34,858 bases of DNA, from the NCBI GenBank assembly GCA_021809895.1, contig JAJZJU010000015.1, positions 1 through 34,858 on the forward strand, written 5' to 3'. The translations under genes were made by a program, and so were the position numbers. Shown here in pieces: positions 4,198-22,803 of the stretch. This DNA is from a bacterium (GTDB lineage Bacteria; Chloroflexota; Dormibacteria; Aeolococcales; Bog-877). The number at the start of each line of letters is the position of its first letter. The stretch's first letter is position 1. A model generated the notes under the pieces. The model was not told the origin of the DNA. It did not search any database and saw only the letters and a list, made by a program, of their open reading frames with translations.

Positions 4198-5484
4198 ATG
4201 GGGCATGGCGCAGACACAGGTGCGTCGGAGGCAATCCTGGTGGTGGGGGGCGGGATCGCGGGGATGACGGCCGCCCTGGAGGCCGCTGAGGCGGGGGCTC
4301 AGGTCTACCTGGTGGAGAAGAATCCCCATCTGGGCGGACGGGTGGCCCAACTGTCCCGCTACTTTCCCAAGCTCTGTCCCCCCGCCTGCGGCCTGGAGAT
4401 CAACTTTCAGCGCCTCCGCGACAATCAGAACATCCGCCTCTTCACCACCGCCGAGGTGGAGGAGCTGCGGGGCGGTCCGGGCCACTACCAGGTCAGGATC
4501 CGCCGCGATCCTCGCTACGTGAATGACCGTTGCACCGCCTGCGGCGCCTGCGCGCAGGTGTGCCCGGTGGATCGGCCCAATCCCTTCGACTATGGGATGA
4601 GCACCACCAAGACCATCTACCTGAGCCACGAGATGGCCTACCCGATGCGCTATGCCATCGACGGCTCGACCTGCCTCTTCGAGGAGTGCGGCAAGTGCGT
4701 CGCGGCCTGTCCCTACCAGGCCATCGACCTGCAAATGGAGGCGGCCACAGTCGAACTGGAGGTGGGGGCGGTCATAGTCGCGACCGGCTGGCAGCCCTAC
4801 GATGCCCGCGCCATCACCAACCTGGCGTTCGAACATCATCCCGACGTCATCACCAACGTGATGTTCGAACGGATGCTGGCCGAGAACGGGCCCACCGAGG
4901 GGCGCGTGCTGCGCCCCTCGGATGGCTCGGCCGTGCGCAGCGCGGCGTTCGTGCAATGCGCCGGCTCTCGGGACCGCCTCCATCTCGCCTACTGCTCAGG
5001 CATCTGCTGTCTGGCGTCGTTGAAGGAGGCCAGCCTGCTGGTGGAGCGAAACCCTGAGGCGCAGGCCCATGTCTTCTACATCGACCTGCGCACCCCCGGG
5101 ACCTACCAGGCCTTCGCCTCCAAGGTGATCGATCATCCCCGGGTGCGGGCTGTCAAGGGCAAGGTGGCGGACATCCTGACCGATCCCCAGAGTGGTCAGC
5201 TGGTGGTGGTCGCTGACGACATGGTCCACGGCGGGATGGAGCGGACTCCGGTGGACCTGGTGGTGCTGGCCACCGGCATGGTGCCCAATCCTGGGCCAGA
5301 GGGCCCACTCGGCCCCGATGCGCGCGACGCCTTCGGCTTCTTCGAGGAGTCGATCGGCGGGGAGGGCCTCTTCGCCGCCGGCTGCGCCCGGGCCCCGGTG
5401 GATGTGGCCACCTCGACCCTGGACGCCACCGCCGCCGCGATGCGCGCCCTGGGCGTGGTCCGGGGCGTGAGGGTGGAAGCGTGA
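4198..5484 (+). CDS. qmoA: QmoA-like / HdrA-family FAD iron-sulfur protein
   Basis: This is a 428-residue HdrA-type flavoprotein. The N-terminal Rossmann FAD loop VGGGIAGMTAA starts at residue 16. The QmoA-typical FPKLCPPACGLEIN follows (C60, C64). Cysteine sets C112-C115-C118-C122 and C159-C164-C167-C171 can carry [4Fe-4S] clusters. A second flavin-domain block contains VQCAGSRD and YCSGICCLASLKEA, the HdrA cysteine site. In known systems QmoA and QmoB exchange electrons between AprBA and a quinone-linked or Hdr-like partner. The ATG at 4198, one base after the aprA stop, is preferred because it gives the family N-terminus; the frame is open further upstream inside aprA. Its stop overlaps the qmoB GTG (GTGA). 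Assignment as QmoA rather than another HdrA paralog rests on the CPPACGLEIN motif and on gene order. Confidence 0.9.
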   Translation: MGHGADTGASEAILVVGGGIAGMTAALEAAEAGAQVYLVEKNPHLGGRVAQLSRYFPKLCPPACGLEINFQRLRDNQNIRLFTTAEVEELRGGPGHYQVRIRRDPRYVNDRCTACGACAQVCPVDRPNPFDYGMSTTKTIYLSHEMAYPMRYAIDGSTCLFEECGKCVAACPYQAIDLQMEAATVELEVGAVIVATGWQPYDARAITNLAFEHHPDVITNVMFERMLAENGPTEGRVLRPSDGSAVRSAAFVQCAGSRDRLHLAYCSGICCLASLKEASLLVERNPEAQAHVFYIDLRTPGTYQAFASKVIDHPRVRAVKGKVADILTDPQSGQLVVVADDMVHGGMERTPVDLVVLATGMVPNPGPEGPLGPDARDAFGFFEESIGGEGLFAAGCARAPVDVATSTLDATAAAMRALGVVRGVRVEA

Positions 5485-7632: not shown

Positions 7633-8838
<1,206 letters not shown>

Positions 8839-9033: not shown

Positions 9034-10248
9034 ATGAGCGATCAGCTGTCGACGCGCCCTCCGGGAGCGCTCGCGCAACCGCCTTTGGCGAGGAAGTTCC
9101 AACGTGATCCCGCCAAGGCGCCGACCGAGGATCTCCGAGAGGCGGTATTCGAGCTGGAACGGCAGGGGGAGTGGGTGGTCCAGCGGGTCCCCGAGCCCTA
9201 CATCGAGGTCGAGACCAAGTACGGGCGCACCAAGAAGATCCCCACGCAGCACACCTGGCACCACAAGAGCTGCGGTCAATGCGGGCACATCCCCGGTTAC
9301 TCGACCTCGATTTTCTGGCTGCACCGGGCCCTGGAACTGGACTACAACGATCCCCGGGACCAGACCTCCTGCACGGCCTGGAACTACTACGCCTCGGCGA
9401 CCTCCAACGCGGCCGCCCAGGCGGCCGTCGCCCAACGCAACTTCGCGGCCGCCTACGAGACCGGCTACTACCCCATGATCCATTGCGGCACCAGCTACGG
9501 CCACTACAAGGAGGTCCGGGAGCAGCTGGTGCACAACCCCGAGCTGCGCCACCAGGTGCGCGACATCATGGCCCGGCTGGGCAAGCCGCTGGTGATCCCG
9601 GAGGAGATAGTGCACTACAGCGAGTGGGTGCACGCCATGCGTGAGGAGTTCGCCAAGCGGCGGGTGCTCGACCTCTCCAACATCACGGTCACGGTGCATC
9701 CCGCCTGCCACTACTACAAGCTGGTCGCCGAGGACGCCATCTACGACGAGGACATCTACAGCGGCCAGCGCACCGCGGTGGTGTCGGCGGTGGTCCAGGC
9801 CATGGGAGCCACCGTGGCCGACTACTCGACGTGGTTCGATTGCTGCGGTTTCGGCTTCCGGCACATCCTGGTGCAGCGCGACTTCACCCGCTCCTTCGCG
9901 ACCTTGCGCAAGATCCAGGTGATGAAGGAGGAGGCCAACCCAGACGTGGTCCTGACCCACGACACCGGCTGCGTCACCACCCTCGACAAGAGCCAATTCG
10001 TGGGCCAGGCCAAGGGCTACAACGTCGGCATCCCGGTGATGTCGGAGGCCCAGTTCGTGGCCCTGGCCATGGGCGCCCATCCCTATCGGGTGTGTCAGCT
10101 GCACTGGCACTCGGTCGACTACCGGCCGCTCCTGGAGAAGATGGGCATCGACTGGGAGGCGCGCTGGGCCGAGTTCGAGCAGGACCTGAAGCGGATACAG
10201 AGCGGAGAGATGCAGTACCTCACCTGGGAGCAGACCGGTGTCAGATGA
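9034..10248 (+). CDS. shdrB1: sHdr HdrB-like subunit (B1-type)
   Basis: HdrB proteins bind the unusual non-cubane iron-sulfur clusters that act on disulfides. This 404-residue product has two cysteine-rich CCG-type modules. The first contains SCGQCGHIPGYSTS and DQTSCTAWNYYA. The second contains VHPACHYYKL, then WFDCCGFGFRH and HDTGC. The C-terminal QLHWHSVDYRPLLEKMGI is typical of HdrB proteins from sulfur-oxidiser gene clusters. A leader of about 85 residues before the first cysteine is longer than in methanogen HdrB. It is followed immediately by the HdrA-like gene, which is the position of HdrB1 in sHdr clusters. The start is the ATG preceded by an AGGAGG site. The naming B1 rather than B2 rests on gene order and general resemblance, so it is less sure than the family. 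Confidence 0.85.
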   Translation: MSDQLSTRPPGALAQPPLARKFQRDPAKAPTEDLREAVFELERQGEWVVQRVPEPYIEVETKYGRTKKIPTQHTWHHKSCGQCGHIPGYSTSIFWLHRALELDYNDPRDQTSCTAWNYYASATSNAAAQAAVAQRNFAAAYETGYYPMIHCGTSYGHYKEVREQLVHNPELRHQVRDIMARLGKPLVIPEEIVHYSEWVHAMREEFAKRRVLDLSNITVTVHPACHYYKLVAEDAIYDEDIYSGQRTAVVSAVVQAMGATVADYSTWFDCCGFGFRHILVQRDFTRSFATLRKIQVMKEEANPDVVLTHDTGCVTTLDKSQFVGQAKGYNVGIPVMSEAQFVALAMGAHPYRVCQLHWHSVDYRPLLEKMGIDWEARWAEFEQDLKRIQSGEMQYLTWEQTGVR

Positions 10249-11302
10249 ATCAGTTCTGGTCATAGGCGGCGGCCCGGCCGGCCTGGAGGCCGCGCGGGGG
10301 GCGGCGGACCTGGGCAGTGAGGTGATCCTGGTGGAGCAGCGCGCCCGCCTGGGTGGCACTCCGGATTCGGCGGGCTACTCGGCGTTTGCGCTCGACCATC
10401 GGCCGGCCCAGGAGGTGCTGGAGATAGCCCGCCAGGCGGTGCTCACCCATCCTCTGGTCAGGGTCCACCTGGAGACCGAGGTCAGCTCGTTCGCGGGCGA
10501 GCTGGGGTCCTTCAGGGCGACGCTGAAGGCGGCTGACGGGACTCTCACCGAGGTCAGCTGCGGCGCCGTCATCATCGCCACCGGCTTCGATCACTTCGAC
10601 CCCGGCCGGGAAACCCAGTCCTACGGCTACTACGAGTTCGAGGACGTCATCACCCTGGTCGACGCTGAGCGGATGCTCCAGGCCAAGAACTTCGTGCGCC
10701 CATCCACCGGCGAGCCTCCCAAGCAGGTCTGCTTCATCCAATGCGTCGGGTCCCGCGACCGCCGGATCGGCAACGAGTACTGCTCCAAGGTCTGTTGCGG
10801 GGTCGCCACCAAGGAGGCCTCTGAGATCCGGGAGCTGGTCCCCGACTGCCGCGTATTCATCTTCTACATCGACATGCGCATGTACGGCTTCTGGGAGGAC
10901 CGCATCTACTGGAAGGCCCAGGAGCAGGACCACGTCAACTTCGTGCGCGGGATCGTGACCGAGATCACCCGCAGGGGCGACCGCCTGGTCATCAAGGGGG
11001 AGGACACGACCATGAACCGCCCCATGGAGATCCCCATGGATGTGGTCGTACTCTCGGTGGGGATGGTGCCCTCCGAGGGGACCAAGGCGGTGGGAAAGAT
11101 GCTCGGCGTGGCCCAGGACAAGCATGGCTTCATCGTGCCTTCGGAGAGCGCCCTGGACACGGTCGCCACCTCGGTGCCGGGCATCTACGTGGCCGGGGCT
11201 GCGGCCGGCCCCAAGGATCTCGACGACTGCGTCTCCATGGCCGGGTCCGCCGCCATGAAGGCGGTGGCGGCTCTCCGCCGCCGGTCTCCGGTCTCTGTGT
11301 GA
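10238..11302 (+). CDS. shdrA: sHdr HdrA-like flavoprotein
   Basis: This 354-residue protein is a compact HdrA. It has an N-terminal FAD loop IGGGPAGLEAARG (GGG at residues 10-12), a second flavin half ending in AGAAAGPKDLDDCVSMAG, and the cysteine site CVGSRD (C169) with YCSKVCCG (C182, C186, C187). Unlike QmoA and QmoB it has no inserted ferredoxin clusters, which is the layout of HdrA in sulfur-oxidising Hdr-like complexes. In those complexes it is thought to form the flavin core that links sulfur chemistry at HdrB sites to electron export. The GTG start overlaps the preceding gene by 11 bases, and its stop overlaps the next GTG by four. Direct involvement in oxidising LbpA-bound sulfane sulfur is known only for relatives and is inferred here. 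Confidence 0.9.
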   Translation: MSDESVLVIGGGPAGLEAARGAADLGSEVILVEQRARLGGTPDSAGYSAFALDHRPAQEVLEIARQAVLTHPLVRVHLETEVSSFAGELGSFRATLKAADGTLTEVSCGAVIIATGFDHFDPGRETQSYGYYEFEDVITLVDAERMLQAKNFVRPSTGEPPKQVCFIQCVGSRDRRIGNEYCSKVCCGVATKEASEIRELVPDCRVFIFYIDMRMYGFWEDRIYWKAQEQDHVNFVRGIVTEITRRGDRLVIKGEDTTMNRPMEIPMDVVVLSVGMVPSEGTKAVGKMLGVAQDKHGFIVPSESALDTVATSVPGIYVAGAAAGPKDLDDCVSMAGSAAMKAVAALRRRSPVSV

Positions 11303-12048
11303 TGGCGATGGCCGGCCACGGCCAGGTGGTCGACACCGAGGCTGCCCAGGAGTTCATGCGCGAGGCTCAGCGCCTGATCCAGGTGCCCGAGCTCGACGGC
11401 ATCGCCATGGAGCTCGAGGTCAAGTCCAGGCGGTTCCGGGAGCTGCTGGACCAGAGCTCGCTGTCGCAGCTCTCGCACGACCAGCTGCGCGGCTGTCTGC
11501 GCACGATATTCGCGGCCCGGCGGCACTCCGACGAGCTGCTTGCCCAGGTAGGGGATGAGCGGTGGCGCCAGGTTCTCCAGAGCCTCCTCCACGGCCCGGG
11601 ACCGGTGGGGGCCCGGATCGACTCGTTCGACAAGGAGCTAACCGAGGTGGAGAGGGGCGTCCGCCGCGACGTGGCCGGCGAGGTGCTCCACTTCTTCGAT
11701 CCCGAGCGCTACTGGCTCTGGACCCGCTGGATCTGGGACCCAGATGTTGGGACCGGCGCGCTGCCGCTGGTGACCATGGCAGATCACGACCTCTCCGCTA
11801 TCTCCGCGGGCCAGACCTATCTCAGGGTGGGAGAGGGGATCGCCTTCGTCAATAAGACCGGTCGTTCGGTGGGATTCACTCGCTTCGGCGATGAAGCATT
11901 CGGCGTCGATGTCTACCTCGCCTGCGTATATGGGGTCTATCTCTACACCATCACCAGGATCCGGATGACCCAGGAGTTCAACAAGGTCATCCCACCCTTG
12001 CCGCAGCTGGCCCGCCGGCTGCTCGGCGTCCACCGGATGGAGGTCTGA
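11299..12048 (+). CDS. shdrH: sHdr-associated conserved protein (HdrH-like)
   Basis: This 249-residue protein has no cysteine cluster, signal peptide or clear enzymatic motif. It is rich in charged helices in the first half (about 1-125). The second half is more hydrophobic, with aromatic patches such as FFDPERYWLWTRW and YLACVYGVYLYTI, which look like a globular domain rather than membrane spans. The assignment rests mainly on position: a gene of unknown function called shdrH lies directly after shdrA in characterised sHdr clusters, and this one overlaps shdrA by GTGA and abuts the next gene exactly. The first codon may be the GTG at 11299 or the ATG at 11302. Its role could be assembly or scaffolding of the complex, but nothing in the sequence shows this. 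Confidence 0.7.
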   Translation: MMAMAGHGQVVDTEAAQEFMREAQRLIQVPELDGIAMELEVKSRRFRELLDQSSLSQLSHDQLRGCLRTIFAARRHSDELLAQVGDERWRQVLQSLLHGPGPVGARIDSFDKELTEVERGVRRDVAGEVLHFFDPERYWLWTRWIWDPDVGTGALPLVTMADHDLSAISAGQTYLRVGEGIAFVNKTGRSVGFTRFGDEAFGVDVYLACVYGVYLYTITRIRMTQEFNKVIPPLPQLARRLLGVHRMEV

Positions 12049-13314
12049 ATGACTGAGATCGAGAAGGAGCGAATCCACGAGGAGGAACACCTGGTCTTCG
12101 AGGGGATGGACATCTCGGGCCATTGGAACCGGATGTTCGAGCAGCGAGTCGTCTGGGAGCATGACGTCTCGGCGCTGGACCGGGTCACCGAGATCCCGGG
12201 CGCGGAGTCACTCGCCTACTGCTACCAGTGTGGCAAGTGCACCCCCGCCTGCCCGGTCGACCATGTGGGGGACTACAGCCCCCGCAAGATCTACCGCCGC
12301 ACCCAGCTCGGCGCCGACCTGGTCAGCAGCCCCGACCTCTGGCTCTGCACCACCTGCGGCAACTGTCTTCGAGTGTGCCCCAAGGAGGTCAACCTCCTCA
12401 AGATCATGCCCGCGGTCCGAGAGCAGGCGGTGGCCGCCGGCAACGTCCCGCCCGAGCTGCAGAAGGCCTTTGAGAACACCTTTCAGTACGGGAACCCGAT
12501 GGGCGAGCCAGCCCGCAAACGGGCGGACTGGGTAGCCGACGCGGGGGCGCCGGTGACCGTGCTGAGCCGTGACCCTCGTCCGGTGGACGTCCTCTTCTTC
12601 GTCGAGTGTTACTGGGCGTACCACCCCCGGGGCCGGGATGCGGCGCGTGCCTTCGCCCGCACCATGGAGATCCTCGGCATCGACTGGGGGATCCTCGGCT
12701 CCGAGGAGAAGTGCTCCTGCGACAGCCAGCGTGCGGCCGGTGAGCGGGGGCTGTTCGAGATGGTGGCGGAGCAGAACATCGCCACCCTGAAGCGCTACCA
12801 GTTCACCCGCCTGGTGACCCCCGATCCCCACGCCTACAACTCCTTCCGCAACCAGTACCCGAAGCTGGGCGGTGTCTACGACGTCACCCACTACACCCAA
12901 TTCCTGGCGCCCCTCATGGCCAAGCTGCCCTGGGTCCGCGAGCTGCCCTACCGGGTGACCTTCCACGACCCCTGCTATCTGGGCCGGCACAACGGCGAGT
13001 ACGACGCGCCCCGGGAGATGATCCGGCAGATCCCCGGGCTGGAGTTCGTGGAGATGTTCCGCTGCAAGGAGAACGGGTACTGCTGCGGTGGTGGCGGCGG
13101 TGGCATGTGGTTGGACAGCTTTTCCGGCAACCACACCAAGGAGCGGCTCAGCGAAAGACGGGTGCGGGAGGCGGTTGAGACCGGGGCGGAGATGCTGGTG
13201 GTCTGCTGCCCCTACGAGGTGTCCCGCTTCGAGGATGCGGTGAAGTCAACCGGAAACGAGGGCAAATTGCTCGTCCGCGATGTCATCGAACTCGTGGATG
13301 AGGCCCTCCACTAG
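12049..13314 (+). CDS. shdrB3: sHdr HdrC-HdrB fusion (B3-like)
   Basis: This 421-residue paralog of the 7633-8838 product has a longer charged leader (residues 1-50). Two [4Fe-4S] sets follow: C58-C61-C64-C68 and C100-C103-C106-C110. The HdrB-like part has HDPCYLGRHNGEYDAPR and YCCGGGG (C345, C346), then CCPYEV. The two paralogs share long identical stretches such as RFTRLVTPDPHAYN-like text and HYTQFLA, pointing to duplication. It abuts the HdrH-like gene with no gap and precedes etfB by ten bases. In the sHdr variant that carries etfAB, separate HdrC2 and HdrB2 are, as I recall, replaced by a fused subunit called B3; position and architecture fit that. It probably hands electrons from the sHdr core to ETF. 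No membrane helices are visible. Confidence 0.85.
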   Translation: MTEIEKERIHEEEHLVFEGMDISGHWNRMFEQRVVWEHDVSALDRVTEIPGAESLAYCYQCGKCTPACPVDHVGDYSPRKIYRRTQLGADLVSSPDLWLCTTCGNCLRVCPKEVNLLKIMPAVREQAVAAGNVPPELQKAFENTFQYGNPMGEPARKRADWVADAGAPVTVLSRDPRPVDVLFFVECYWAYHPRGRDAARAFARTMEILGIDWGILGSEEKCSCDSQRAAGERGLFEMVAEQNIATLKRYQFTRLVTPDPHAYNSFRNQYPKLGGVYDVTHYTQFLAPLMAKLPWVRELPYRVTFHDPCYLGRHNGEYDAPREMIRQIPGLEFVEMFRCKENGYCCGGGGGGMWLDSFSGNHTKERLSERRVREAVETGAEMLVVCCPYEVSRFEDAVKSTGNEGKLLVRDVIELVDEALH

Positions 13315-13324
13315 GAGACCGTGA

Positions 13325-14092
13325 GTGCATATAGCAGTGATCTTGAAGCAGGTGCCCGATCTGGTCGAAGAGGTTGAGGTCGATGCCAGCGGTGCCGGCA
13401 TCGACCGCGACAGTGTCAAGTGGAAGTTGAACGAGTTCGACGACCACGCTCTGGAACAGGCGGTCCTGATCAAGGAGAGTACCGGCGGGGAGGTGACCGC
13501 GCTGGCTCTCGATGGGGACGGGGTGGACCAGCTGCTGTACGCGGCGCTGGCCAGGGGTGCAGACCGGGCGCTCAAGGTCCCCACCTCAGATGAGCGCACC
13601 GATGCGCCCAGAATCGCGGCGGCGCTGGCTCCGGTGCTGCGGGAGATGGCCCCCGACCTGGTCCTGACCGGGGTCCAGGCCGCCGACGACCTGCACGGCC
13701 AGCTGGGGCCCATCCTGGCGACCAGTCTCGATTGGCCCCATGTCAGCGTGGTGAGCGGGGTCGAGGTGTCGGGGGCCGCGGTCCAGGTACAGCAGGAGTA
13801 CTCGGGGGGCCGCATGGCCACCCTCGAGGTCCAGTTGCCGGCGGTCCTGGGGGTGCAGGCGGCAACCCGCCCACCCCGCTACGTGCCGATCAGCAGGCTT
13901 CGCCAGATCATGGCGTCGGCCCAGATCGGCGAGGCCGCAGCCGCCGGGGAGGCGGCTGCGCTGGGCTCCACCGTGACCAGGCTGGCGCCGCCGGCCCAGG
14001 GCGCCGGGGCCCAGATGTGGGAGGGCAAGCCGGAGGAGATAGCGCAGCAGCTTTTGGACGTGCTCCGCGAGCGCGGCCTGTTGGGAGCATGA
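13325..14092 (+). CDS. etfB: Electron transfer flavoprotein beta subunit
   Basis: EtfB pairs with EtfA to carry two electrons on FAD, with a second nucleotide (AMP, or FAD in bifurcating types) in the beta subunit. The 255-residue product begins MHIAVILKQVPD and continues with KWKLNEFDDHALEQAV, both diagnostic. LTGVQAADDLHGQLGPILA and the RYVPISRLRQIMA segment near the end complete the family pattern. The GTG start at 13325 gives the exact family N-terminus and lies ten bases after the previous stop. Its TGA overlaps the etfA ATG. In this setting it probably accepts electrons from the HdrC-HdrB fusion. Whether it is a one-FAD or bifurcating type cannot be settled by eye. Confidence 0.93.
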   Translation: MHIAVILKQVPDLVEEVEVDASGAGIDRDSVKWKLNEFDDHALEQAVLIKESTGGEVTALALDGDGVDQLLYAALARGADRALKVPTSDERTDAPRIAAALAPVLREMAPDLVLTGVQAADDLHGQLGPILATSLDWPHVSVVSGVEVSGAAVQVQQEYSGGRMATLEVQLPAVLGVQAATRPPRYVPISRLRQIMASAQIGEAAAAGEAAALGSTVTRLAPPAQGAGAQMWEGKPEEIAQQLLDVLRERGLLGA

Positions 14093-15063
14093 GCATGGCT
14101 GGGGTTCTGGTCTACATCGAAACCGACAAGGATCGGGTGGCACCCATCAGCTTCGAGCTGCTGGGCCTGGCCAGGCAGTTGACGGAGCAACTGGGGGGCT
14201 CGGTGGAGGCGCTGGTGGCGGCCGCGGATCCGGAGCCACTGGTGGCGGAGCTCGCCGGAGCCGACGTCGTCGTCAGCGTCCAGAGCCCCGCCCTTGCCGC
14301 CTACACCCCCGAAGCTCACCAGGCGGTGCTGGTGGAGGCCATCCGGAGCCGGGAGCCGCAGGCGGTGCTGGTGGGATACACCTCGGCCGGCCTGGACCTG
14401 GCCGCCGGGAGCGCCACCGCCACCGACAGGCCGGTGGTCGGCTACTGTGTGGGGCTGGCCGTCGACCAAGGTGAGCTGGTGGCGGACAGCCAGCTCTACG
14501 GCGGCAAGCTGGTGGCGACCACCAGGACTCGGCCACCGGCCGTCTTCTCGGTGGTGTCGGGCAGCTTCCCCGAGGCGGCCGGCCGCTCCGGCGGCCGGGG
14601 GGAGAGGGTCGTCATGGACCCCCCCGACGCGCTCAACCACCTGAGGACCCGCCTGGTGGGGACCAGCAGTGGCGGCGACGGCGCCATCGACATCACCAAG
14701 GCGGAGCGGATCGTCAGCGTCGGGCGCGGCATCGGAGGTCCCGACAACATCGAGGTCGCCGAGGAGTTCGCGGCGGCATTGGGAGCGGAGCTGGGCGCCT
14801 CCCGACCGGTGGTGGACAGTGGCTGGCTGCCCAAGGAGCGCCAGGTCGGCAAGTCGGGCATGACCGTCAAACCCAAGCTGTACGTGGCGGTGGGCATCTC
14901 CGGGGCGCCGGAGCACCTGGAGGGGATGCAGGGGGCGGGGCTCATCATCGCCATCAACACCGACCCCAACGCGCCCATCTTCCAGGTCGCCGGCTACGGG
15001 ACCACCTGCGATCTCTTCGACCTCCTACCGGCGCTCAGCGAGCAGCTCAAGGCGGCCGGCTGA
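14089..15063 (+). CDS. etfA: Electron transfer flavoprotein alpha subunit
   Basis: The 324-residue EtfA has the N-terminal domain opening (VLVYIETDKDRVAP). The conserved C-terminal FAD domain contains GRGIGGPDNIEVAEEFA, SRPVVDSGWLPKERQVGKSG, KPKLYVAVGISG and NTDPNAPIF, then a tail with GYGTTCDLFDLLP. These residues hold the FAD. The frame is open well upstream within etfB, but the ATG at 14089 overlapping the etfB stop (ATGA) gives the family start; the ATG at 14095 is an alternative. Four bases separate its stop from the EtfD-like gene. The usual aspartate-glycine step in the tail (ADYG in many family members) reads AGYG here, a small departure. Together with EtfB it likely bridges soluble sHdr subunits and the membrane quinone reductase. 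Confidence 0.94.
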   Translation: MSMAGVLVYIETDKDRVAPISFELLGLARQLTEQLGGSVEALVAAADPEPLVAELAGADVVVSVQSPALAAYTPEAHQAVLVEAIRSREPQAVLVGYTSAGLDLAAGSATATDRPVVGYCVGLAVDQGELVADSQLYGGKLVATTRTRPPAVFSVVSGSFPEAAGRSGGRGERVVMDPPDALNHLRTRLVGTSSGGDGAIDITKAERIVSVGRGIGGPDNIEVAEEFAAALGAELGASRPVVDSGWLPKERQVGKSGMTVKPKLYVAVGISGAPEHLEGMQGAGLIIAINTDPNAPIFQVAGYGTTCDLFDLLPALSEQLKAAG

Positions 15064-15067
15064 TCCC

Positions 15068-17062
15068 ATGGCACCGACTGGGATCGCCCTGCTGGCCCTC
15101 ATGGTGGCGACCTTCGCCTGGTCCGGCTACCGCTTTTCACGGCTATTGCGGCCGCTGACCAAAGGGGCGGCCGAGAACCGTTTCGATCAGCCCCTGCGCC
15201 GGGCCTGGGGGGTGGTGACCAACGTCGGGGGACACACGCGCCTGCTTCAGATCCGCTACTCCGGGATCCTGCACCTGATGATCTTCAGCGGCTTCGTGGT
15301 GCTGCTGACGGCGGTGGTCCAGGAGTTCGGCAAGGGGCTGGTGCCCGGCTTCAGCCTGGCGCTGATCGGGGGCAACAACTGGATCGCCCTGCTGCAGGAC
15401 ATCTTCGACGTCCTGGTCCTGGTGGGACTGGCGATGGCTGCCTACAACCGCTACGTGCGTCGGCCCGCCCGCTTCCAGGGCTCCAACGAGCGCGACGCCA
15501 CCATCATCCTGGCCCTGATCTTCCTGGTGGTGGCCAGCATGCTGCTGCACAACAGCTTCAGGGTGGCCGAGGGTCACGACCCCTCGGCGGCCTGGCGCCC
15601 GGTCAGCTCAGCCCTGGCGGGCCTGGTCGGGTTGGTGGGGGTTCACGGCGCCAAGGCCGCCCCCTACTCGCACGTCTTCTACTGGACCCACGTCCTGGCC
15701 ATCCTCGCCTTCCTGGCCTACATCCCGACCTCCAAGCACCTGCATGTCTTCGTGGGCATCCCCAACATCTACTTCCGGGACCTGGCTCCCAGGGGGACCC
15801 TGCCGGCGGCCGACCTCAGCCAGCCCTCGGTCGGCCTGAAGCAGATCTATCAGATGGGTTGGAAGCAGATGCTGGACCTCTACGCCTGCACCGAGTGCGG
15901 CCGCTGCCAGGCGGTCTGCCCAGCCTTCGCCGCCGGCCAGCCGCTCAGTCCCAAGCTGCTGATCATGGACCTGCGGGATCACCTGCTGGAGCAGGAGGGG
16001 ATCGGCTCCCACCGCAAGGGGGTGGGCGGCGTCCAGCTGCTGGGCGACGCGATCAAGGACGACACCCTGTGGGCCTGCACCACCTGCCGGGCCTGCATGC
16101 AGGTGTGCCCGCTCCACATCGAGCACGTGCCCAAGATCGTCGACATGCGCCGCCAGCTGGTTGAGCAGGGCCGGATGGAGCCGCGCCTGCAGGACACCCT
16201 GGCCAGCCTGGCCCAGTACGGGAACTCCTTCAACCAGTCGGAGCGGATGCGCTCGAAGTGGACCAAGGAGCTCGGCTTCACCATCAAGGATGCCCGCAAG
16301 GAGCCGGTCGACGTGCTCTGGTTCGTGGGCGACTTCGCCTCCTACGACCCCCGGGTGCAGCGGCTCACCCAAACCGTGGCCCGGGTCATGAACCGGGCCG
16401 GGGTGGACTTCGGCATCCTCTACGAGGGGGAGCGCAACAGTGGCAACGACGTGCGCCGGGTCGGCGAGGAGGGCCTGTTCGAGATGCTGGCCCAGCACAA
16501 CATCGAGACGCTCGCCAAGTGCGACTTCCGCAGGATCATGACCACTGACCCCCACAGCCTCAACGCCATCGGCCAGGAGTACCCGAGGCTGGGCGGCAAC
16601 TATCCGGTGCTCCACTACACCCAGCTGCTCCTCGAGCTCTTGGAGAAGGGCGCGCTCAAGCCCACCCGGGGCCAGGAGATGGTGGCCACCTATCACGACC
16701 CCTGCTACCTGGGGAGGTACAACAACGGCTTTGAGGCCCCCCGCCGGATCATGGAGCTGCTGGGCGTCAGGGTGCACGAGATGCCCCGTTGCCGGGAGAA
16801 CAGCTTCTGCTGCGGTGCCGGCGGGGGGAGGATCTGGATGGACGACCGAGGGGTCAAGGAGCGGCCCAGTGAGAACAGGATCCGCGAGGCGGTCTCCCTG
16901 GGCGACGCCGGCTACTTCGTGGTCGCCTGCCCCAAGGACGTGGTGATGTACACGGCCGCGGTGCAGTCGACCGGCATGGAGGGCCGCATCCAGGTCATGG
17001 ATGTCATAGAGCTGGTGGAGGCGGCGCTGGAACCGGAGGTGGCAGCGGTTGCCGTCGCCTGA
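15068..17062 (+). CDS. etfD: EtfD-type membrane iron-sulfur quinone reductase
   Basis: The 664-residue protein has an N-terminal membrane half with about five or six helices (near residues 4-22, 66-85, 104-126, 143-162, 180-194 and 205-221). Histidines such as H69 and H209 resemble the NarI-like cytochrome b fold. A ferredoxin module follows (C274-C277-C280-C284 and C337-C340-C343-C347). The HdrB-like module carries HDPCYLGRYNNGFEAPR and FCCGAGGG (C581, C582). This is the EtfD family, proposed to move electrons between ETF and the quinone pool. It is the only membrane-bound redox protein in the sulfur array. The C-terminal half is clearly related to the two soluble HdrC-HdrB fusions. The ATG lies four bases after the etfA stop, supporting a functional EtfABD unit. 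Confidence 0.92.
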   Translation: MAPTGIALLALMVATFAWSGYRFSRLLRPLTKGAAENRFDQPLRRAWGVVTNVGGHTRLLQIRYSGILHLMIFSGFVVLLTAVVQEFGKGLVPGFSLALIGGNNWIALLQDIFDVLVLVGLAMAAYNRYVRRPARFQGSNERDATIILALIFLVVASMLLHNSFRVAEGHDPSAAWRPVSSALAGLVGLVGVHGAKAAPYSHVFYWTHVLAILAFLAYIPTSKHLHVFVGIPNIYFRDLAPRGTLPAADLSQPSVGLKQIYQMGWKQMLDLYACTECGRCQAVCPAFAAGQPLSPKLLIMDLRDHLLEQEGIGSHRKGVGGVQLLGDAIKDDTLWACTTCRACMQVCPLHIEHVPKIVDMRRQLVEQGRMEPRLQDTLASLAQYGNSFNQSERMRSKWTKELGFTIKDARKEPVDVLWFVGDFASYDPRVQRLTQTVARVMNRAGVDFGILYEGERNSGNDVRRVGEEGLFEMLAQHNIETLAKCDFRRIMTTDPHSLNAIGQEYPRLGGNYPVLHYTQLLLELLEKGALKPTRGQEMVATYHDPCYLGRYNNGFEAPRRIMELLGVRVHEMPRCRENSFCCGAGGGRIWMDDRGVKERPSENRIREAVSLGDAGYFVVACPKDVVMYTAAVQSTGMEGRIQVMDVIELVEAALEPEVAAVAVA

Positions 17063-17459
17063 ACAAGGCTCCAACGCGGAGGCCCTGGCCGCCGCAATCG
17101 GCGACCGCCAGGCCGGCCTCCTGCGTGCCCAGGAGCGCTGGAGGGCGCTGGAGACCCGCCCTGCGGGCACGCAGGTTGCGCCGGGCGGAGGGCGCGAGCT
17201 CTCGGAGGCGCTGTTGCGCCGGGCCCTGCAGTGCCTGGCGGGTTCGTCCGAGTACGCCCTGGCGCGGCAGCTGATGGGGAGCCGCCAGCTGATAACCGCC
17301 GATCCGCTCACTGAGCTATCCCTCCAGGCGCTGGCGCAGGCGGGGCTGGCGAGCTGGGATCCCAGCACCGGCGAGCTGGCCGCGACCGCTCTGCTGGAAG
17401 CGCTGATGGGCTTCTTCGACTCCGCGGTCGAGGGAGCTGTCGGGGATGGCAGGCTGTGA
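17049..17459 (+). CDS. Hypothetical protein in the sHdr operon (136 residues)
   Basis: The family is not recognised. The product has one cysteine, no membrane span and no signal peptide, and is alanine/leucine-rich and probably mostly helical. Reading begins at a TTG overlapping the EtfD-type gene by 14 bases; no better start is evident nearby. The stop overlaps the GTG of the next small gene (GTGA). Third-position GC is high along the frame, as in its neighbours, which supports real coding. Location between an electron-transfer module and the lipoate-binding proteins suggests an accessory role in sulfur oxidation, but this is guilt by association only. Confidence 0.65.
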   Translation: MPSPEQGSNAEALAAAIGDRQAGLLRAQERWRALETRPAGTQVAPGGGRELSEALLRRALQCLAGSSEYALARQLMGSRQLITADPLTELSLQALAQAGLASWDPSTGELAATALLEALMGFFDSAVEGAVGDGRL

Positions 17460-17746
17460 CCTGTCCCTTCTGCGACCGCCCCGGGGAGCGTCGGGAGCTG
17501 CATGCGCACATGCTGAGCGACCATCCCGACCGGCTCATCACCAGAGAGGAGGCGGGGCGCATCTTCATGGAGGTCAACTGCCCCGCCTGTTCCGAGGGCA
17601 TCAGCAAGGAGGTGAACCCCAGAGGTCGCGACCCCCTGTTCCTGGACAAATTCGCAGACGAGATTAGGATGGTGGGCTTCGACCTCCTGCTCTACCACTG
17701 GGAGACGCATGCAGGGGCCGCTGCAGAACAACCGACGGAGGGATAG
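17456..17746 (+). CDS. Small zinc-finger-like protein before lbpA (96 residues)
   Basis: The product begins MTCPFCDRPGERRELHAHML, with a CxxC pair followed by a cluster of histidines (HAHMLSDH) that could form a C2H2-type zinc site. A second CPAC pair lies at about residues 42-45, and DLLLYHWETH is near the C-terminus. No known family is recognised. The GTG start overlaps the preceding stop, and its TAG is two bases before the lbpA start. Tight packing and a cysteine/histidine pattern make a real metal-binding protein likely. It could assist cluster or lipoyl-protein handling, or be regulatory; the sequence does not decide. Confidence 0.7.
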   Translation: MTCPFCDRPGERRELHAHMLSDHPDRLITREEAGRIFMEVNCPACSEGISKEVNPRGRDPLFLDKFADEIRMVGFDLLLYHWETHAGAAAEQPTEG

Positions 17747-17748
17747 CC

Positions 17749-18186
17749 TTGGCGACAGTCAACAACTGCAACATCCCCGACGACCTCCACTACCTGATCG
17801 ACAAGCATGTATGGGTCCAGCGGGAGAGCGACGGCGCCGCCCTGATCGGGATCACCGATGTGGCCCAGAAGCTGGCCGGCAAGATCATCGTCGTCACCAC
17901 CAAGAAGGTGGGCCGCTCGCTGACCCGGGGCCAGAGCACCGGCACCATCGAGAGCTCCAAGTGGGTGGGGCCGATCCCGAGCCCCCTGACCGGTGAGATC
18001 CTGGCCGTGAACCAGGCCCCCCAGGACGACCCCACAGTCCTCAACCGGGACCCCTACGCCAACTGGATAGTGCGCCTCCAACCCGCGGACTGGGATGGGG
18101 AGAGCGGCGACCTGGTGACCGGGTCCGATGGCGTGGAGGCCTACCGCCGCCTGCTCGAGGCGGAGGGGATCGACTGCGGCAGCTGA
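17749..18186 (+). CDS. lbpA: Lipoate-binding protein LbpA, first copy
   Basis: LbpA is a GcvH-like protein whose lipoyl arm carries sulfur intermediates to the sHdr complex. The 145-residue product has the biotinyl/lipoyl fold. The modified lysine is expected at K71 in TIESSKWVGP, where true GcvH has ESVKA. DDLHYLIDKHVWV near the N-terminus and NRDPYANWIVRLQP after the lipoyl hairpin are family features. The TTG start is supported by a GGAGGG site at 17737-17742 and lies two bases after the preceding stop. It overlaps the next lbpA by three bases. No gcvP or gcvT genes are nearby, which argues against a glycine-cleavage role. Confidence 0.92.
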   Translation: MATVNNCNIPDDLHYLIDKHVWVQRESDGAALIGITDVAQKLAGKIIVVTTKKVGRSLTRGQSTGTIESSKWVGPIPSPLTGEILAVNQAPQDDPTVLNRDPYANWIVRLQPADWDGESGDLVTGSDGVEAYRRLLEAEGIDCGS

Positions 18187-18653
18187 TGATGGAAGCTCTC
18201 CCTCGCGTCCACCAGGGCTGTGCCATTCCCGAGGAGTTGGAGTACGACCTCGAGAAGGACGTGTGGGTGCGCTTCGACCCCGACGGCACGACCACCATCG
18301 GCATGACCGACCCCGCCCAGACCAGGGCCGGCAAGCTGGTCAGCATCCTCTTCAAGCGCCCGGGCAAGATGTTCGAGGCCGGCCAGAGCGTGGCCACGAT
18401 AGAGAGCGCCAAGTGGGTTGGGCCGTTTCCCACCCCTCTGTCCGGTGAGCTCCTGGAGGTCAACCAGGCCCGCTTCGAGAAGGACATCCTGATCGCCAAC
18501 CGTGACCCCTACGGCGAGGGCTGGCTGGCCCGGCTGAGGCCCACCGACCTTGCCCAGGAACGGCAGCGGCTGACCGCCGGCGCCCGGGCCTTCGAGTTCT
18601 ACAAGGAGCGCATCGACCGTGACGGAATCCGATGCTTCCGCTGCGCAGACTGA
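18186..18653 (+). CDS. lbpA: Lipoate-binding protein LbpA, second copy
   Basis: This second GcvH-like protein (155 residues) lies directly after the first, with its ATG overlapping the first copy's TGA. The lipoyl lysine is expected at K76 in TIESAKWVGP. The N-terminal IPEELEYDLEKDVWVRF and the RDPYGEGWLARLRP segment are shared in pattern with copy one, but the rest has diverged considerably. The two are therefore old paralogs rather than a recent duplication. The C-terminus adds a short extension ending CFRCAD, giving a CxxC pair not present in copy one. An adjacent ATG at 18189 is an alternative start. The second copy may serve a different partner, for example a different Hdr subunit. Confidence 0.91.
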   Translation: MMEALPRVHQGCAIPEELEYDLEKDVWVRFDPDGTTTIGMTDPAQTRAGKLVSILFKRPGKMFEAGQSVATIESAKWVGPFPTPLSGELLEVNQARFEKDILIANRDPYGEGWLARLRPTDLAQERQRLTAGARAFEFYKERIDRDGIRCFRCAD

Positions 18654-18840
18654 GCGGCTGTGCCCGCTGTGCCAGATGATGCCGGTGGAGGCAGGGCGGC
18701 CGATGTGCCTCACCTGCTGGCGCCTGGCACCCACCTGGGTGCGCCGCACATTCAAGGAAAAAGAGCAGGTGGACTGGGCGCACCTGCTCGAGGAGGACTC
18801 CATCCGCAGCCCAAAACCGGAGGGAAACGATGGCCATTGA
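18619..18840 (+). CDS. Tiny zinc-ribbon-like protein (73 residues)
   Basis: The frame carries two CxxC pairs, LCPLCQ and MCLTCW, spaced about 15 residues apart. This is a compact zinc-ribbon pattern, followed by a basic and then an acidic helix. It starts at a GTG inside the end of the second lbpA (35 bases overlap) and ends inside the first codons of tusA (11 bases overlap). It fills what would otherwise be a 176-base gap in a tightly packed operon, which supports its reality. No family is recognised. The start is uncertain, because an internal start nearer the cysteines would avoid the long overlap. Confidence 0.6.
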   Translation: MTESDASAAQTERLCPLCQMMPVEAGRPMCLTCWRLAPTWVRRTFKEKEQVDWAHLLEEDSIRSPKPEGNDGH

Positions 18841-19069
18841 AGGCGCCGACAAAACGCTCGACTGTCTCCACATGATGTGCCCCATGCCGATCGTGAAGGT
18901 CTCCAAGGCGATCAAGGAGGTGGAGGTGGGGCAGACCCTGCTCCTGATCGCGGACGACCCCGGGGCCACCCCCGACATCCAGACCTGGTCCCGGCGGATG
19001 GGTCACGAGCTGGTGGCCACCGAGCAGGAGGGCAAGGTGCTCCGGTTCCTGATCCGGAGGACCAGCTGA
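18830..19069 (+). CDS. tusA: TusA-family sulfur carrier
   Basis: TusA carries sulfane sulfur as a persulfide on a conserved cysteine and, in sulfur oxidisers, delivers it to the sHdr/LbpA system. The 79-residue product has LDCLHMMCPMPIVKV, with the catalytic cysteine at C17 in the CPMP motif and an extra cysteine at C12. The DDPGATPDIQTWSRRMGHEL segment is also typical. A GGAGGG ribosome site precedes the ATG. Its stop overlaps the ATG of shdrC1, tying sulfur delivery to the complex. Confidence 0.93.
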   Translation: MAIEGADKTLDCLHMMCPMPIVKVSKAIKEVEVGQTLLLIADDPGATPDIQTWSRRMGHELVATEQEGKVLRFLIRRTS

Positions 19070-19752
19070 TGCGTCCCACCTCGATCCCGGAGGCGACCGC
19101 GGAGGAGAAGCAGCGCATCTTCAGCCAGGTGCAGGCGGACATCCGCTTCCCGGAGTACCTGAAGGGCTGTTACGAATGCGGGATCTGCGTGGCCGCCTGT
19201 CCCTCCGCCCGTTTCTACAACTTCAGCCCCCGCCGCATCACCCAGGCGGTCGCCCGCCAGGACATCGACCTGGTCTGGGAGCAGATGAACGGCGAGGTCT
19301 GGGACTGCTCCCAGTGCTTCTCCTGTCTGCGCTGCCCCCGCGGCAACAACCCGGGTGGGGTGATAACCATCCTGCGCGAGGTGGCGGTCAACAACGGCCT
19401 CGGCACCGCCAAGGAGGCCCTGGAGGGATACGGCCGGATCATCTACAAGATCATGGGGACCGGGACCCAGGTCTCCCCGGACATGATCCAGCCTGAGGCG
19501 TTTCCGGATTGGGGGCCCGAGACCAAGGCGACCTCCGAGAATCTGCAGCTGTGGCGCAAGGCCCTGCCGCCGGAGACCCTGCACACCACCAGCACCTCGT
19601 GGGACGTGGCCCCCAAGACCCTCACCGAGCTCTACCTGATCTGGCACCTGACCGGGGTCCTGGACATGATCAAGGGTGTCGACCCCAACCTGCACGCCAT
19701 CCTCGGCGACGTCATGGAGGAGATGCTGGAGGAGGAGGGCTACCAGGTCTGA
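19069..19752 (+). CDS. shdrC1: sHdr HdrC1-like ferredoxin subunit
   Basis: This 227-residue protein holds two [4Fe-4S] sites, CYECGICVAACP (C34, C37, C40, C44) and CSQCFSCLRCP (C80, C83, C86, C89). SARFYNFSPRRI lies between them, characteristic of HdrC in sulfur-oxidising clusters. The C-terminal part is helical and acidic (DVMEEMLEEEG). In standard sHdr clusters shdrC1 is the first gene, before shdrB1; here it is about 9 kb away at the end of the array, after tusA. The ATG overlapping the tusA stop is chosen because it matches the family start. The last 41 bases overlap the 3' end of the convergent minus-strand gene. Confidence 0.9.
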   Translation: MRPTSIPEATAEEKQRIFSQVQADIRFPEYLKGCYECGICVAACPSARFYNFSPRRITQAVARQDIDLVWEQMNGEVWDCSQCFSCLRCPRGNNPGGVITILREVAVNNGLGTAKEALEGYGRIIYKIMGTGTQVSPDMIQPEAFPDWGPETKATSENLQLWRKALPPETLHTTSTSWDVAPKTLTELYLIWHLTGVLDMIKGVDPNLHAILGDVMEEMLEEEGYQV

Positions 19753-21058
19753 GCCGCCAGAAGTCGCCCTCCGCGCAGAAGAGGTACAGGTCATCTCCCA
19801 CCCACTCACCCCTGGCCGGGCGCTGGAGGTTGGCCTGCCCGACCGTCCCCCCCTCGCCCACCACAAGGACACCCTCCCGGCAGTGGGCGACGACGCCGTG
19901 CCCCGTGGCTCGCAGCGAGCAGTGCCACCCGGCCGGCACCGGGACCACTCGACCGTCGGCCAGCTCCAGCTCGTCCGCCCCTCCAGCCGCGACCAGCTCC
20001 CCGCTGGAGTTGACGGCCAGGGTGACCGGCGAGCGGTGCCTGAGCCTCCCATCCTCCAGCTCCCGGCCCTCCCCATCGATGAGGTGCCAGCTGCCGGACC
20101 TGGTGGCGACCCAGACCCGCTCCGGCCCGGCCGGCCACACCCCGCCGACCTCCAGCAGATCGCTGACGACCAGGTGGTCCGGCGCTCCCCGCTCCTGGTG
20201 GATCAGGACCGCGTAGGCTTGGGCCACCACCCGGAAGCGGTGGGCCGCATCCGGCTCGTCGGGATGGTGATCGGGGTGGGTCTCCTTGGCCCGGCGCCGG
20301 AAGGCCCGCCGGACCTGGGTCGGGCTGGCGTCGGCGGGGATCCCGAGCACCTGGGCGGCCTGGCTCCGGCGCCGCTCCGAGACTTGGTCGGATGCTGCCA
20401 CCGCCGGCGCCTCCCAGCTCCAGCGCACGGCTCCCTCGCCGTCGAGCTCGGTGACGCCACCTCGCTCGGAGACCCACACCCGCCCGCCCTCCGGGTCCGC
20501 CCACACCCGCTGCTCTGGGGTGGCCGGCCACCCGGCCACCGGATGGCTCCAGCGCCTCCTGCCGTCGGGAAAGAAGGCGTGGAGCGCCCCTCCGGAGGTG
20601 GCGACCAGCACCAGCTCCGCGGCCGCCACGGTCTGCACCAGGACGCCCTCCATGGTCAGGAGTCGGCCCACCTCTCCCGCCGGAGAGAGCACCAGGAGCT
20701 CTCTGGCGAAGGGCCGCTTGCTGGCCCGCTCGGCGAGCTGGCTAGGCCAGCACCGCAACCAGATCCAGCCCTGGGGCGCCGCCACGATCCGCTGCGCCGG
20801 CAGCGGGAGCTGGGCCAGCGGCAGGTACTCCCGGTTCGGAGCCGGCAGTCGGGCGAGCTCAGAGCCTCCCATGTCGCGGGCCACCAGCACGGTATGATCC
20901 GAAGTCACGGCCCAGGCCCGCACGATGGGGCGCAGCGTGAGGGACTCGACCGTCATCAGCCCCGCTGGGAGGGGCCGCAATGGACTCGGAAGCTCTAGTC
21001 CGGGGGTGACCCGAACCGCTGGTGGGGGCGCGCTGGAAGCCAGGTCGGAGTGATTCAT
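19712..21058 (-). CDS. J-domain protein embedded in a probable beta-propeller
   Basis: The 448-residue product has a J domain at about residues 232-288, with AAQVLGIPADASPTQVRRAF and the HPD tripeptide at 261-263. It is flanked on both sides by repeating beta-strand segments of PQQ/WD-like character (for example VWVSERGGVTELDGEG and VWVATRSGSWHLIDGEG). The J domain would stimulate an Hsp70 partner. The propeller may be a docking surface. No signal peptide is visible. The annotated ATG gives a proline-rich leader and overlaps the divergent lipoate-ligase ATG by two bases (CATG). A downstream ATG (residue 35, starting at 20956) would leave about 100 bases for promoters and may be the true start. 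The 3' end overlaps shdrC1 by 41 bases tail to tail. It may be a client-specific chaperone for the sulfur proteins, but only position suggests this. Confidence 0.85.
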   Translation of the reverse strand: MNHSDLASSAPPPAVRVTPGLELPSPLRPLPAGLMTVESLTLRPIVRAWAVTSDHTVLVARDMGGSELARLPAPNREYLPLAQLPLPAQRIVAAPQGWIWLRCWPSQLAERASKRPFARELLVLSPAGEVGRLLTMEGVLVQTVAAAELVLVATSGGALHAFFPDGRRRWSHPVAGWPATPEQRVWADPEGGRVWVSERGGVTELDGEGAVRWSWEAPAVAASDQVSERRRSQAAQVLGIPADASPTQVRRAFRRRAKETHPDHHPDEPDAAHRFRVVAQAYAVLIHQERGAPDHLVVSDLLEVGGVWPAGPERVWVATRSGSWHLIDGEGRELEDGRLRHRSPVTLAVNSSGELVAAGGADELELADGRVVPVPAGWHCSLRATGHGVVAHCREGVLVVGEGGTVGQANLQRPARGEWVGDDLYLFCAEGDFWRLRPGSPPPPASPP

Positions 21059-22145
21059 GAAAGCTGTCAGGCTGCTGGATCTAAGGCTCTGCTCTTACAC
21101 CGAGAGTCAGACGCTCTATCACGCCGTCGCCGACAGCCTGCGTCCCGGTGACCCCAACACCATCATCCTGTGCCGGCCGCGGCGCCCGTATGTCTGCATC
21201 GGCCGCCATCAGGAGCTGAACCGTGAGGTCGATCGGGAGGCCTGTCGGCGGCTGGGGTTGCCGATCATGCGCCGTCAGGTCGGCGGCGGAGCCGTCTACC
21301 TGGATCGCGATCAGCTGTTCTTCCAGATAGTGTGCCATCCCCGGGACGTGCCCTCCAGCATTGCGGGCGCCTTCGAACACTTCGCCCAGGCACCCGTCGA
21401 ATGCTACCGGGCGCTGGGGGTGACCGGGGCGCACTTCGCCCCGGTCAACGACCTTCAGGTGGAGGGGCGCAAGATCGGGGGGCTGGGGGCCGCCACCATC
21501 GGGCGGGCTTTCGTCTTCGTGGGCTCGATCATCAGCGCCTTCGACGCCCGCGCCGCCGCCAGCGTTCTGCTGATTCCCGACGAGAAGATGCGCGACAAGG
21601 TGGCGGAGACCATGGAGGCATACGTTTCCAGCCTGGAGCGGGAGTTGGGCCGGCGCCCGTCGCCGCAGCTGGTCCGTCGCGAACTGGTGCATGCCTTCGA
21701 GGGGGTGTTGGGCTCCAGGCTGGAGCCGGGGAGGCTGCGGGAAGATGAGCGCGAGACGTACCACCGCTGGGTCCAGCGCATGCGCAGCGCCGCCTGGCTG
21801 GACGACGTGCGCTTCTCGGACGACCGGCTGAGGCCCGTGAAGATCACCGGCCACGTGCGGGTCGGGCGGGCCACCCACAAGGCGCCCGGTGGCCTGTTGC
21901 GGGCGACCGTGATGGTGGCCGAGGGACGCATCACCCAGGCTCTGGTCAGCGGCGACTTCTACGCGGTCGGACACGCGGTGGATGACCTGGAGGAGGCCAT
22001 CGTGGGGACAGCCGACCTGGCCCAGGTGCGGGAGCGCATCCGCTCGGCGTGGGTTGAGGACGCGCTCCCGGGGGTGGGGCTGAGCGACCTGGTCGAGGTG
22101 GTGCGCCTGGCCCTGGAGCCCGGTGCAGCGGCAGCGTCGGGGTGA
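21057..22145 (+). CDS. Lipoate-protein ligase, LplA+LplB type (sLpl-like)
   Basis: The enzyme activates lipoate (or octanoate) with ATP and attaches it to a lysine of a carrier protein. The 362-residue product has a catalytic LplA part with RRQVGGGAVYLD (residues 72-83) and NDLQVEGRKIGGLGAA (131-146, catalytic lysine K139). A C-terminal accessory LplB-like domain begins near residue 260 (VKITGHVRVGRATHKAPGG). This fused form is what I recall for the ligase dedicated to LbpA in sHdr organisms, and two lbpA genes lie 3-4 kb upstream. The start fits the family opening (AVRLLDLRL) and has GGAG six bases before the ATG. No LipS1/LipS2-type lipoyl synthase genes are in the window. A GCCCG/CGGGC hairpin follows the stop at 22146-22158. 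Confidence 0.92.
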   Translation: MKAVRLLDLRLCSYTESQTLYHAVADSLRPGDPNTIILCRPRRPYVCIGRHQELNREVDREACRRLGLPIMRRQVGGGAVYLDRDQLFFQIVCHPRDVPSSIAGAFEHFAQAPVECYRALGVTGAHFAPVNDLQVEGRKIGGLGAATIGRAFVFVGSIISAFDARAAASVLLIPDEKMRDKVAETMEAYVSSLERELGRRPSPQLVRRELVHAFEGVLGSRLEPGRLREDERETYHRWVQRMRSAAWLDDVRFSDDRLRPVKITGHVRVGRATHKAPGGLLRATVMVAEGRITQALVSGDFYAVGHAVDDLEEAIVGTADLAQVRERIRSAWVEDALPGVGLSDLVEVVRLALEPGAAAASG

Positions 22146-22482: not shown

Positions 22483-22560
22483 CGCCCCGGCGGCGACGAT
22501 GCTCAGCAGAGTTGATGGCGGGGAGCGTCCCGGGTCTCGGGCCGCTTCCAGGAGTGAGTG

Positions 22561-22803
22561 ATGGGCGACCTTACCCCGGCGGCGAGTCTGGACCTGCGGG
22601 GGATCTCGTGCCCGCTCACCTTCGTCAAGACCAAAATCGCCCTTGACCGGCTGCCGAGAGGCACCACGCTGGAGGTGCTGCTCGACTCGGGCGAGCCCAG
22701 CGAGTCGGTGCCGAGAACGTGCCGCGAGTCGGGAGACGAGGTCCTGGAGCTTGGACCCTGGGAGGCTGGGGTGGTCAGGATGGTGGTGGTCCGGCCTGTC
22801 TGA
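22561..22803 (+). CDS. tusA: TusA-family protein, second copy
   Basis: The product is 80 residues from the ATG at 22561 (a GTG at 22558 would add one). It has the TusA/YedF pattern LDLRGISCPLTFVKTKIAL, with the persulfide cysteine at C17 in a CPLT rather than CPxP motif. The C-terminal GDEVLELGPWEAGVVRMVVV strands complete the fold. It lies outside the sulfur array, after the lipoate ligase, and is preceded by a CCAGGAG ribosome site. It differs strongly from the operon TusA. It may serve general sulfur transfer or be an alternative donor to the sHdr system. It ends 13 bases before the convergent histidine kinase stop. Confidence 0.88.
   Translation: MGDLTPAASLDLRGISCPLTFVKTKIALDRLPRGTTLEVLLDSGEPSESVPRTCRESGDEVLELGPWEAGVVRMVVVRPV

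Follow-up and report, generated by a model that had tools for sequence, protein, structure and literature searches.

A conserved HdrB3-EtfBA-EtfD gene set as the probable electron exit of a type II sHdr system in a Dormibacteria genome

How does the sulfane-sulfur-oxidising sHdr system deliver its electrons to the respiratory chain? This question is unsettled, and it is raised in concrete form by a contig of a Chloroflexota bacterium (Dormibacteria, Aeolococcales, Bog-877; assembly GCA_021809895.1, contig JAJZJU010000015.1). The contig, analysed over its full 34.9 kb (34,858 nucleotides) and called the window here, encodes a soluble HdrC-HdrB fusion protein, sHdrB3 (HdrB3), followed by the two subunits of an electron transfer flavoprotein (ETF), EtfB and EtfA, and by a membrane-bound ETF:quinone oxidoreductase, EtfD. 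These four genes probably form an electron exit dedicated to a type II sHdr system for sulfane-sulfur oxidation, leading via ETF and EtfD to menaquinone. An earlier note, made from the DNA alone, had already read them as an exit from a fused HdrB3-like protein over EtfBA and EtfD to quinone, and the conserved gene linkage and the EtfA clade described below lend indirect support to this reading. The genes of the cluster are as follows.

9034-10248, + strand: sHdrB1
10238-11302, + strand: sHdrA, an HdrA-like flavoprotein
11299-12048, + strand: sHdrH, a conserved hypothetical protein of the cluster
12049-13314, + strand: sHdrB3, soluble HdrC-HdrB fusion, proposed electron donor of the ETF
13325-14092, + strand: EtfB of canonical type, with Asp at the Gly123 position of bifurcating ETFs
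14089-15063, + strand: EtfA with FAD domain, alpha-FAD residues present
15068-17062, + strand: EtfD-like membrane ETF:quinone oxidoreductase of the D1-less type
17749-18186, + strand: LbpA 1, lipoate-binding, GcvH-like
18186-18653, + strand: LbpA 2
18830-19069, + strand: TusA sulfurtransferase
19069-19752, + strand: sHdrC1, with the true start inside the mechanical open reading frame 18877-19752
21057-22145, + strand: lipoate-protein ligase (Lpl)

The window begins with sat-aprB-aprA-qmoA-qmoB and an hdrD-like gene, to which we return below, continues with sHdrB1-sHdrA-sHdrH-sHdrB3-etfB-etfA-etfD and, downstream of etfD, contains two small genes, two LbpA genes, a Cys-rich open reading frame, TusA and sHdrC1; the lipoate-protein ligase gene follows after one minus-strand gene. 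The order shdrB3-etfB-etfA-etfD with gaps of ten, an overlap and four nucleotides, as claimed before, is exact by coordinates: all four open reading frames are intact, the stop of shdrB3 at 13314 lies 10 nt before the GTG of etfB at 13325, the 3' end of etfB at 14092 overlaps the ATG of etfA at 14089 by 4 nt, and 4 nt separate the end of etfA at 15063 from the ATG of etfD at 15068. Searches with Pfam and NCBIfam models assign Fer4 and CCG domains to HdrB3, ETF and ETF_alpha domains to EtfB and EtfA, and two Fer4 domains and CCG domains on a membrane domain to EtfD.

Type II sHdr systems are defined by shdrC1B1AHB3 with etfAB in one syntenic cluster (PMC11582611). In the window the genes for B1, A, H and B3 are contiguous (9034-13314), C1 lies in the same gene run (19069-19752), etfAB is part of the cluster (13325-15063), and two LbpA genes and the Lpl gene are linked to it. 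The same arrangement is found well beyond this contig. Among 400 Chloroflexota genomes 25 contain sHdrB1, and all 25 have an sHdr cluster with etfBA-etfD; 21 of these, counting the window, carry B3-etfB-etfA-etfD and the LbpA genes on a single contig in the same order, and in the remaining four (G179, G220, G224, G339; G and L numbers are our labels for genomes and loci) the cluster is split by contig ends, with the etfBA-etfD-LbpA part on another contig. The set recurs in named genomes of Actinomycetota (Solirubrobacterales, Mycobacteriaceae, Amycolatopsis), Gemmatimonadota, Calditrichota, KSB1 and Neomarinimicrobiota, and the Bacillota member Sulfobacillus harzensis also has an sHdr cluster with etfBA-etfD. 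The linkage, the lack of which in relatives would have spoken against an sHdr-specific exit, is thus conserved in at least seven phyla, and since each of the sHdrB1-bearing Chloroflexota genomes examined has it, as do several other phyla, the gene order means more than chance.

How could the electrons travel? Sulfane-sulfur oxidation on sHdrA, sHdrB1 and sHdrC1, with LbpA, would pass electrons to soluble HdrB3, whose remaining CCG-type cluster would reduce the one FAD carried by an EtfAB of canonical, non-bifurcating type. EtfAB would in turn reduce the matching cluster, at the D2 position, of the D1-less EtfD, from which two cubane clusters and haem b would lead to menaquinone. That HdrB3 is the direct donor of the ETF, that electrons flow in this direction and that menaquinone is the acceptor is what we infer from these data. 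Could the chain instead run backwards, from menaquinol through EtfD and ETF to HdrB3, in a sulfate- or disulfide-reducing process? Every carrier is chemically reversible and sulfate reducers also have AprBA and QmoAB, but LbpA, TusA and sHdr are markers of sulfur oxidation (PMC6067878) and COX1 is present in the genome. Moreover, dsrA was not found at the cut-off in five genomes (G000, G135, G391, G348, G339), so that Sat, Apr and Qmo probably run oxidatively; reverse flow is improbable.

Whom does this ETF serve? The earlier note held that ETFs are normally fed by acyl-CoA dehydrogenases and that none are encoded here. The second part stands, as the scanned window proteins include no acyl-CoA dehydrogenase; the first is too narrow, as sarcosine, dimethylglycine and trimethylamine dehydrogenases also donate to ETFs (PMC12630350). 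It could be imagined that ETF and EtfD form a general ETF:quinone exit that lies here by chance and is fed by acyl-CoA or amino-acid dehydrogenases encoded elsewhere, as canonical ETFs usually serve several dehydrogenases and the genome, whose contigs were searched by protein family, yields six Acyl-CoA_dh_1 matches. All six, however, are on contigs other than the window, and the genome holds two further EtfA proteins and a second EtfD, the latter in a beta-oxidation locus with acyl-CoA dehydrogenases and, by sequence inspection, an enoyl-CoA hydratase-like and a thiolase-like protein. Because of this separate beta-oxidation EtfD and the two other ETFs the window set looks dedicated to sHdr. 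In the EtfA tree 38 sHdr-locus rows, 13 HdrABC-locus rows and two Pseudomonadota proteins form one clade (SH-aLRT 99), which leaves out the genome's other two ETFs, the ETFs beside EtfDs with complete ligand sets, the bifurcating references and the ETFs linked to acyl-CoA dehydrogenases; the clustering with fatty-acid ETFs that would have contradicted the earlier note is not seen. With the linkage to shdr kept across phyla, a general exit is quite improbable.

The type of the ETF can be read from one position of EtfB. Gly123 is invariant in bifurcating ETFs and a bulky residue in its place marks the canonical AMP type (PMC12630350). The window EtfB has Asp there, as have 37 of the 39 scorable sHdr-linked EtfB rows (the others have one Glu and one Gly) and all 12 HdrABC-linked rows; the C58 EtfB of the same genome has Gly. 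EtfA contains the Arg, Ser and His of the alpha-FAD site (in GASR, KSG and APEH), and the closest solved EtfB is that of the AMP-type W3A1 ETF of Methylophilus methylotrophus (1o94; 126 bits over 249 residues), which is likewise canonical but distant in sequence and serves trimethylamine dehydrogenase. Since Asp replaces the bifurcation-diagnostic Gly, the window ETF is predicted to be canonical and non-bifurcating with AMP and one FAD, and the choice between AMP and a second FAD that had been left for inspection would thus fall to AMP. That the ETF bifurcates or confurcates, so that sHdr would be tied not just to quinone but also to NAD(H) or ferredoxin, is highly improbable: bifurcation is known from Hdr systems and EtfABCX-type enzymes and EtfB has QLGP near the site where bifurcating EtfB has QVGP, but the diagnostic Gly is lost here and in nearly all orthologues, the closest solved relative is of AMP type, and the cluster has neither EtfC/EtfX nor an NADH module.

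What kind of acceptor is EtfD? Its AlphaFold2 model (pLDDT 88.8) matches best, among structures in the PDB, EtfD of Mycobacterium smegmatis (9ojn, TMq 0.91; PMC13083937), with which it shares the haem ligands (H69 and H226, equivalent to His78 and His241 for haem b in the membrane domain), the aromatic residues of the menaquinone site and the eight Cys of two cubane [4Fe-4S] clusters. It differs from the M. smegmatis enzyme, which serves beta-oxidation, in the two further clusters. Other residues (D422, N457, D494, S497) stand in place of all four Cys that would bind the linear [3Fe-4S] cluster D1, and in the noncubane cluster D2 the equivalent of Cys712 is D624, the other five of the six ligands (5 Cys and His583) being present; C546, C581, C582, C621 and H496 are retained. 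The D1 Cys are absent and Cys712 is replaced by Asp in all 38 full-length sHdr-linked EtfD rows of the tree and in S. harzensis; the EtfD in the beta-oxidation locus of the window's genome has every D1 and D2 ligand. Loss of the D1 Cys with retention of His583 and the D2 Cys is the pattern of DgcB and FadF, for which it has been argued that ETF reduces D2 directly (PMC13083937). The same D/N-T/D/S-T pattern is seen in DgcB-like proteins from Azoarcus and Paracoccus; the donors of DgcB and FadF, a FAD-dependent oxidoreductase or acyl-CoA dehydrogenases, differ in not being Hdr-type complexes. On the soluble domain, once the columns of the trait are taken out, the D1-less EtfDs form one clade (SH-aLRT 99); a single origin fails on the full-length proteins. 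Full-length and soluble-domain trees also disagree for the EtfDs of L058-L072 and L129-L134, which suggests that the membrane domain was exchanged in a subgroup containing Anaerolineales. A mycobacterium-like EtfD in a record titled Bifidobacterium breve (L203) is probably from a mislabelled or misbinned contig of a metagenome-assembled genome.

HdrB3 resembles EtfD in fold and in what it has lost. The best PDB match of its AlphaFold2 model (pLDDT 85.9) is again EtfD 9ojn (TMq 0.80); it keeps the eight cubane Cys (C58/61/64/68 and C100/103/106/110) and retains C309, C345, C346, C387 and H261, and where the second CCG cluster should have its fifth Cys there is E390. The HdrD-like proteins that are linked to an ETF make up a clade of their own (support 100), and 32 HdrD-like proteins from HdrA-type operons fall outside it. 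In the ETF-linked group Glu takes the place of Cys712 and the D1 Cys pair 581/584 is gone in nearly all members, and the HdrA-operon group has the full CCG Cys set in 33 of 35, tallies that include two rows that are EtfD fragments picked up by the search. At three HdrA-type operons (L180, L182, L195) a different ETF is nearby. HdrB3 and D1-less EtfD were not recovered as sisters but fall into different clades of the soluble tree, so that the matching ligand losses look convergent: the two proteins that are both expected to meet the ETF have apparently changed alike independently.

Several points weigh against so close a reading of the four genes. In L128, L133, L167, L071 and L165 lpl genes or 2-7 kb separate B3 from etfB, the trees are quick searches, and the source is a metagenome-assembled genome (2.5 Mb) that is 86% complete. 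A single clade of all EtfA linked to D1-less EtfD, including the long branch L112, is neither rejected nor proven (AU test, p = 0.10), and Asp or Glu at the Cys712 position may affect whether a normal noncubane cluster forms at D2. An etfBA-etfD set of the same type is also found without sHdr, beside HdrABC operons, GMC oxidoreductases and DgcA-like enzymes, and adjacency therefore marks the exit module, not the protein that touches the ETF.

This wider use of the module takes several forms. Twelve genomes with a D1-less EtfD module are without sHdrB1, and D1-less EtfDs accompany HdrA/HdrBC/FlpD operons, GMC oxidoreductases (Agrobacterium, Mesorhizobium) and DgcA-like enzymes (Azoarcus, Paracoccus). 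The idea that D1 loss is unique to sHdr-linked EtfDs was dropped, as it is common to the HdrABC-, GMC- and DgcA-linked EtfDs and to DgcB and FadF (PMC13083937). HdrA/QmoA-like operons are joined to B3-etfBA-etfD at L106, L107, L110 (where the operon includes HdrBC and FlpD), L111, L114, L122, L135, L138, L139, L140 and L176, and sHdrB1 was not found at the tested loci of this kind. At L166 and L206 (and L181), in Mesorhizobium and Agrobacterium, a GMC oxidoreductase and a small partner gene adjoin etfBA and a D1-less etfD, which suggests that the GMC enzyme is an ETF-using dehydrogenase of sugar or polyol type.

The genes upstream of the sHdr cluster bear on whether the probable sHdr exit is shared.

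632-1876, + strand: sat, ATP sulfurylase
1882-2331, + strand: aprB
2331-4196, + strand: aprA
4198-5484, + strand: qmoA
5481-7619, + strand: qmoB, with FlpD domain
7633-8838, + strand: HdrD-like partner after qmoAB, in place of qmoC, 59% identical to sHdrB3

The HdrD-like protein has the same degenerate CCG signature as HdrB3 and groups with sHdr-type B3 proteins (support 82). It is soluble and does not have the Nitrate_red_gam-type membrane domain fused to HdrC that characterises QmoC; no QmoC-type membrane domain was found above the cut-off genome-wide, the one sub-threshold match being the EtfD. Three genomes of the family have sat-aprBA-qmoAB and a following B3-derived hdrD as a unit, with the HdrD gene at 7633-8838 in the window (G000), at 11178-11999 of L228 and 5178-6380 of L051 in G135, and at 10367-11560 of L227 in G391. 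Two full-length QmoC-domain matches in G135 look like NarI. One EtfAB/EtfD exit could possibly serve both the sHdr oxidation of sulfane sulfur to sulfite via HdrB3 and the Apr/QmoAB oxidation of sulfite to sulfate via a B3-derived HdrD replacing QmoC, a tentative proposal that we hold with some doubt. No ETF-linked QmoAB was found in the literature searched.

Other genes of the window deserve brief mention. The two small genes behind etfD are:

17049-17459, + strand: hypothetical gene u1, found in close relatives only
17456-17746, + strand: small conserved Cys/His protein (CPFC..H.H, CPxC), between etfD and lbpA

The second, which matches no Pfam family above the cut-off, recurs in type II sHdr clusters of Chloroflexota, Actinomycetota and Gemmatimonadota. 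The minus-strand gene between shdrC1 and the lipoate ligase gene (19712-21058) encodes a DnaJ-domain protein, and a gap equivalent to its position is also there in L051 and L052. A second TusA-like sulfurtransferase (22558-22803) adjoins a histidine kinase/response regulator pair on the opposite strand (22817-25004).

An ETF route for sHdr is not new, but it is tested here more broadly than before. The earlier note took the locus as a direct genetic hint for how sHdr reaches the respiratory chain; the hint holds, but the route had already been proposed. In 2018 hdr, lbpA and etfBA were described as linked in Actinobacteria and Firmicutes (PMC6067878). For Thermomicrobium roseum, in which a 19-gene hdr-etf-lbpA cluster is induced 45-fold on average in starvation, it was proposed in 2019 that electrons possibly enter the respiratory chain via ETF (PMC6776052). 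T. roseum belongs to the same phylum and shares sHdr genes, fused B3, etfBA, several lbpA and tusA (PMC6776052); what the window has beyond that cluster is a named acceptor in the membrane, EtfD, a sat-aprBA-qmoAB block in the same run and, behind qmoAB, a paralogue of B3. In Sulfobacillus ETF genes were reported in 2014 to be syntenous with a long CCG protein with six transmembrane helices (PMC4378227). In this resemblance to hdr cluster II of Sulfobacillus the EtfD of S. harzensis has the ligand signature of the window protein, but the paper labelled the long gene hdrC and left the cluster ligands unexamined (PMC4378227). Beyond the papers cited here none was found in the open literature that names EtfD in sHdr clusters, although reviews of type II sHdr may hold one. 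New, and not found described in the open literature, are the paired ligand signature, how widely the module occurs, its reuse with other donors, and the B3-derived partner behind QmoAB.

For type II sHdr systems HdrB3-EtfBA-EtfD gives a concrete route into the respiratory chain. The ligand signature, loss of D1 and replacement of Cys712 by Asp or Glu, marks ETF-coupled CCG proteins and predicts ETF coupling from sequence. In some Chloroflexota a common exit for sHdr and Apr/Qmo is suggested; if this is true, QmoAB would be ETF-linked and one ETF would collect the electrons of all cytoplasmic sulfur oxidation.

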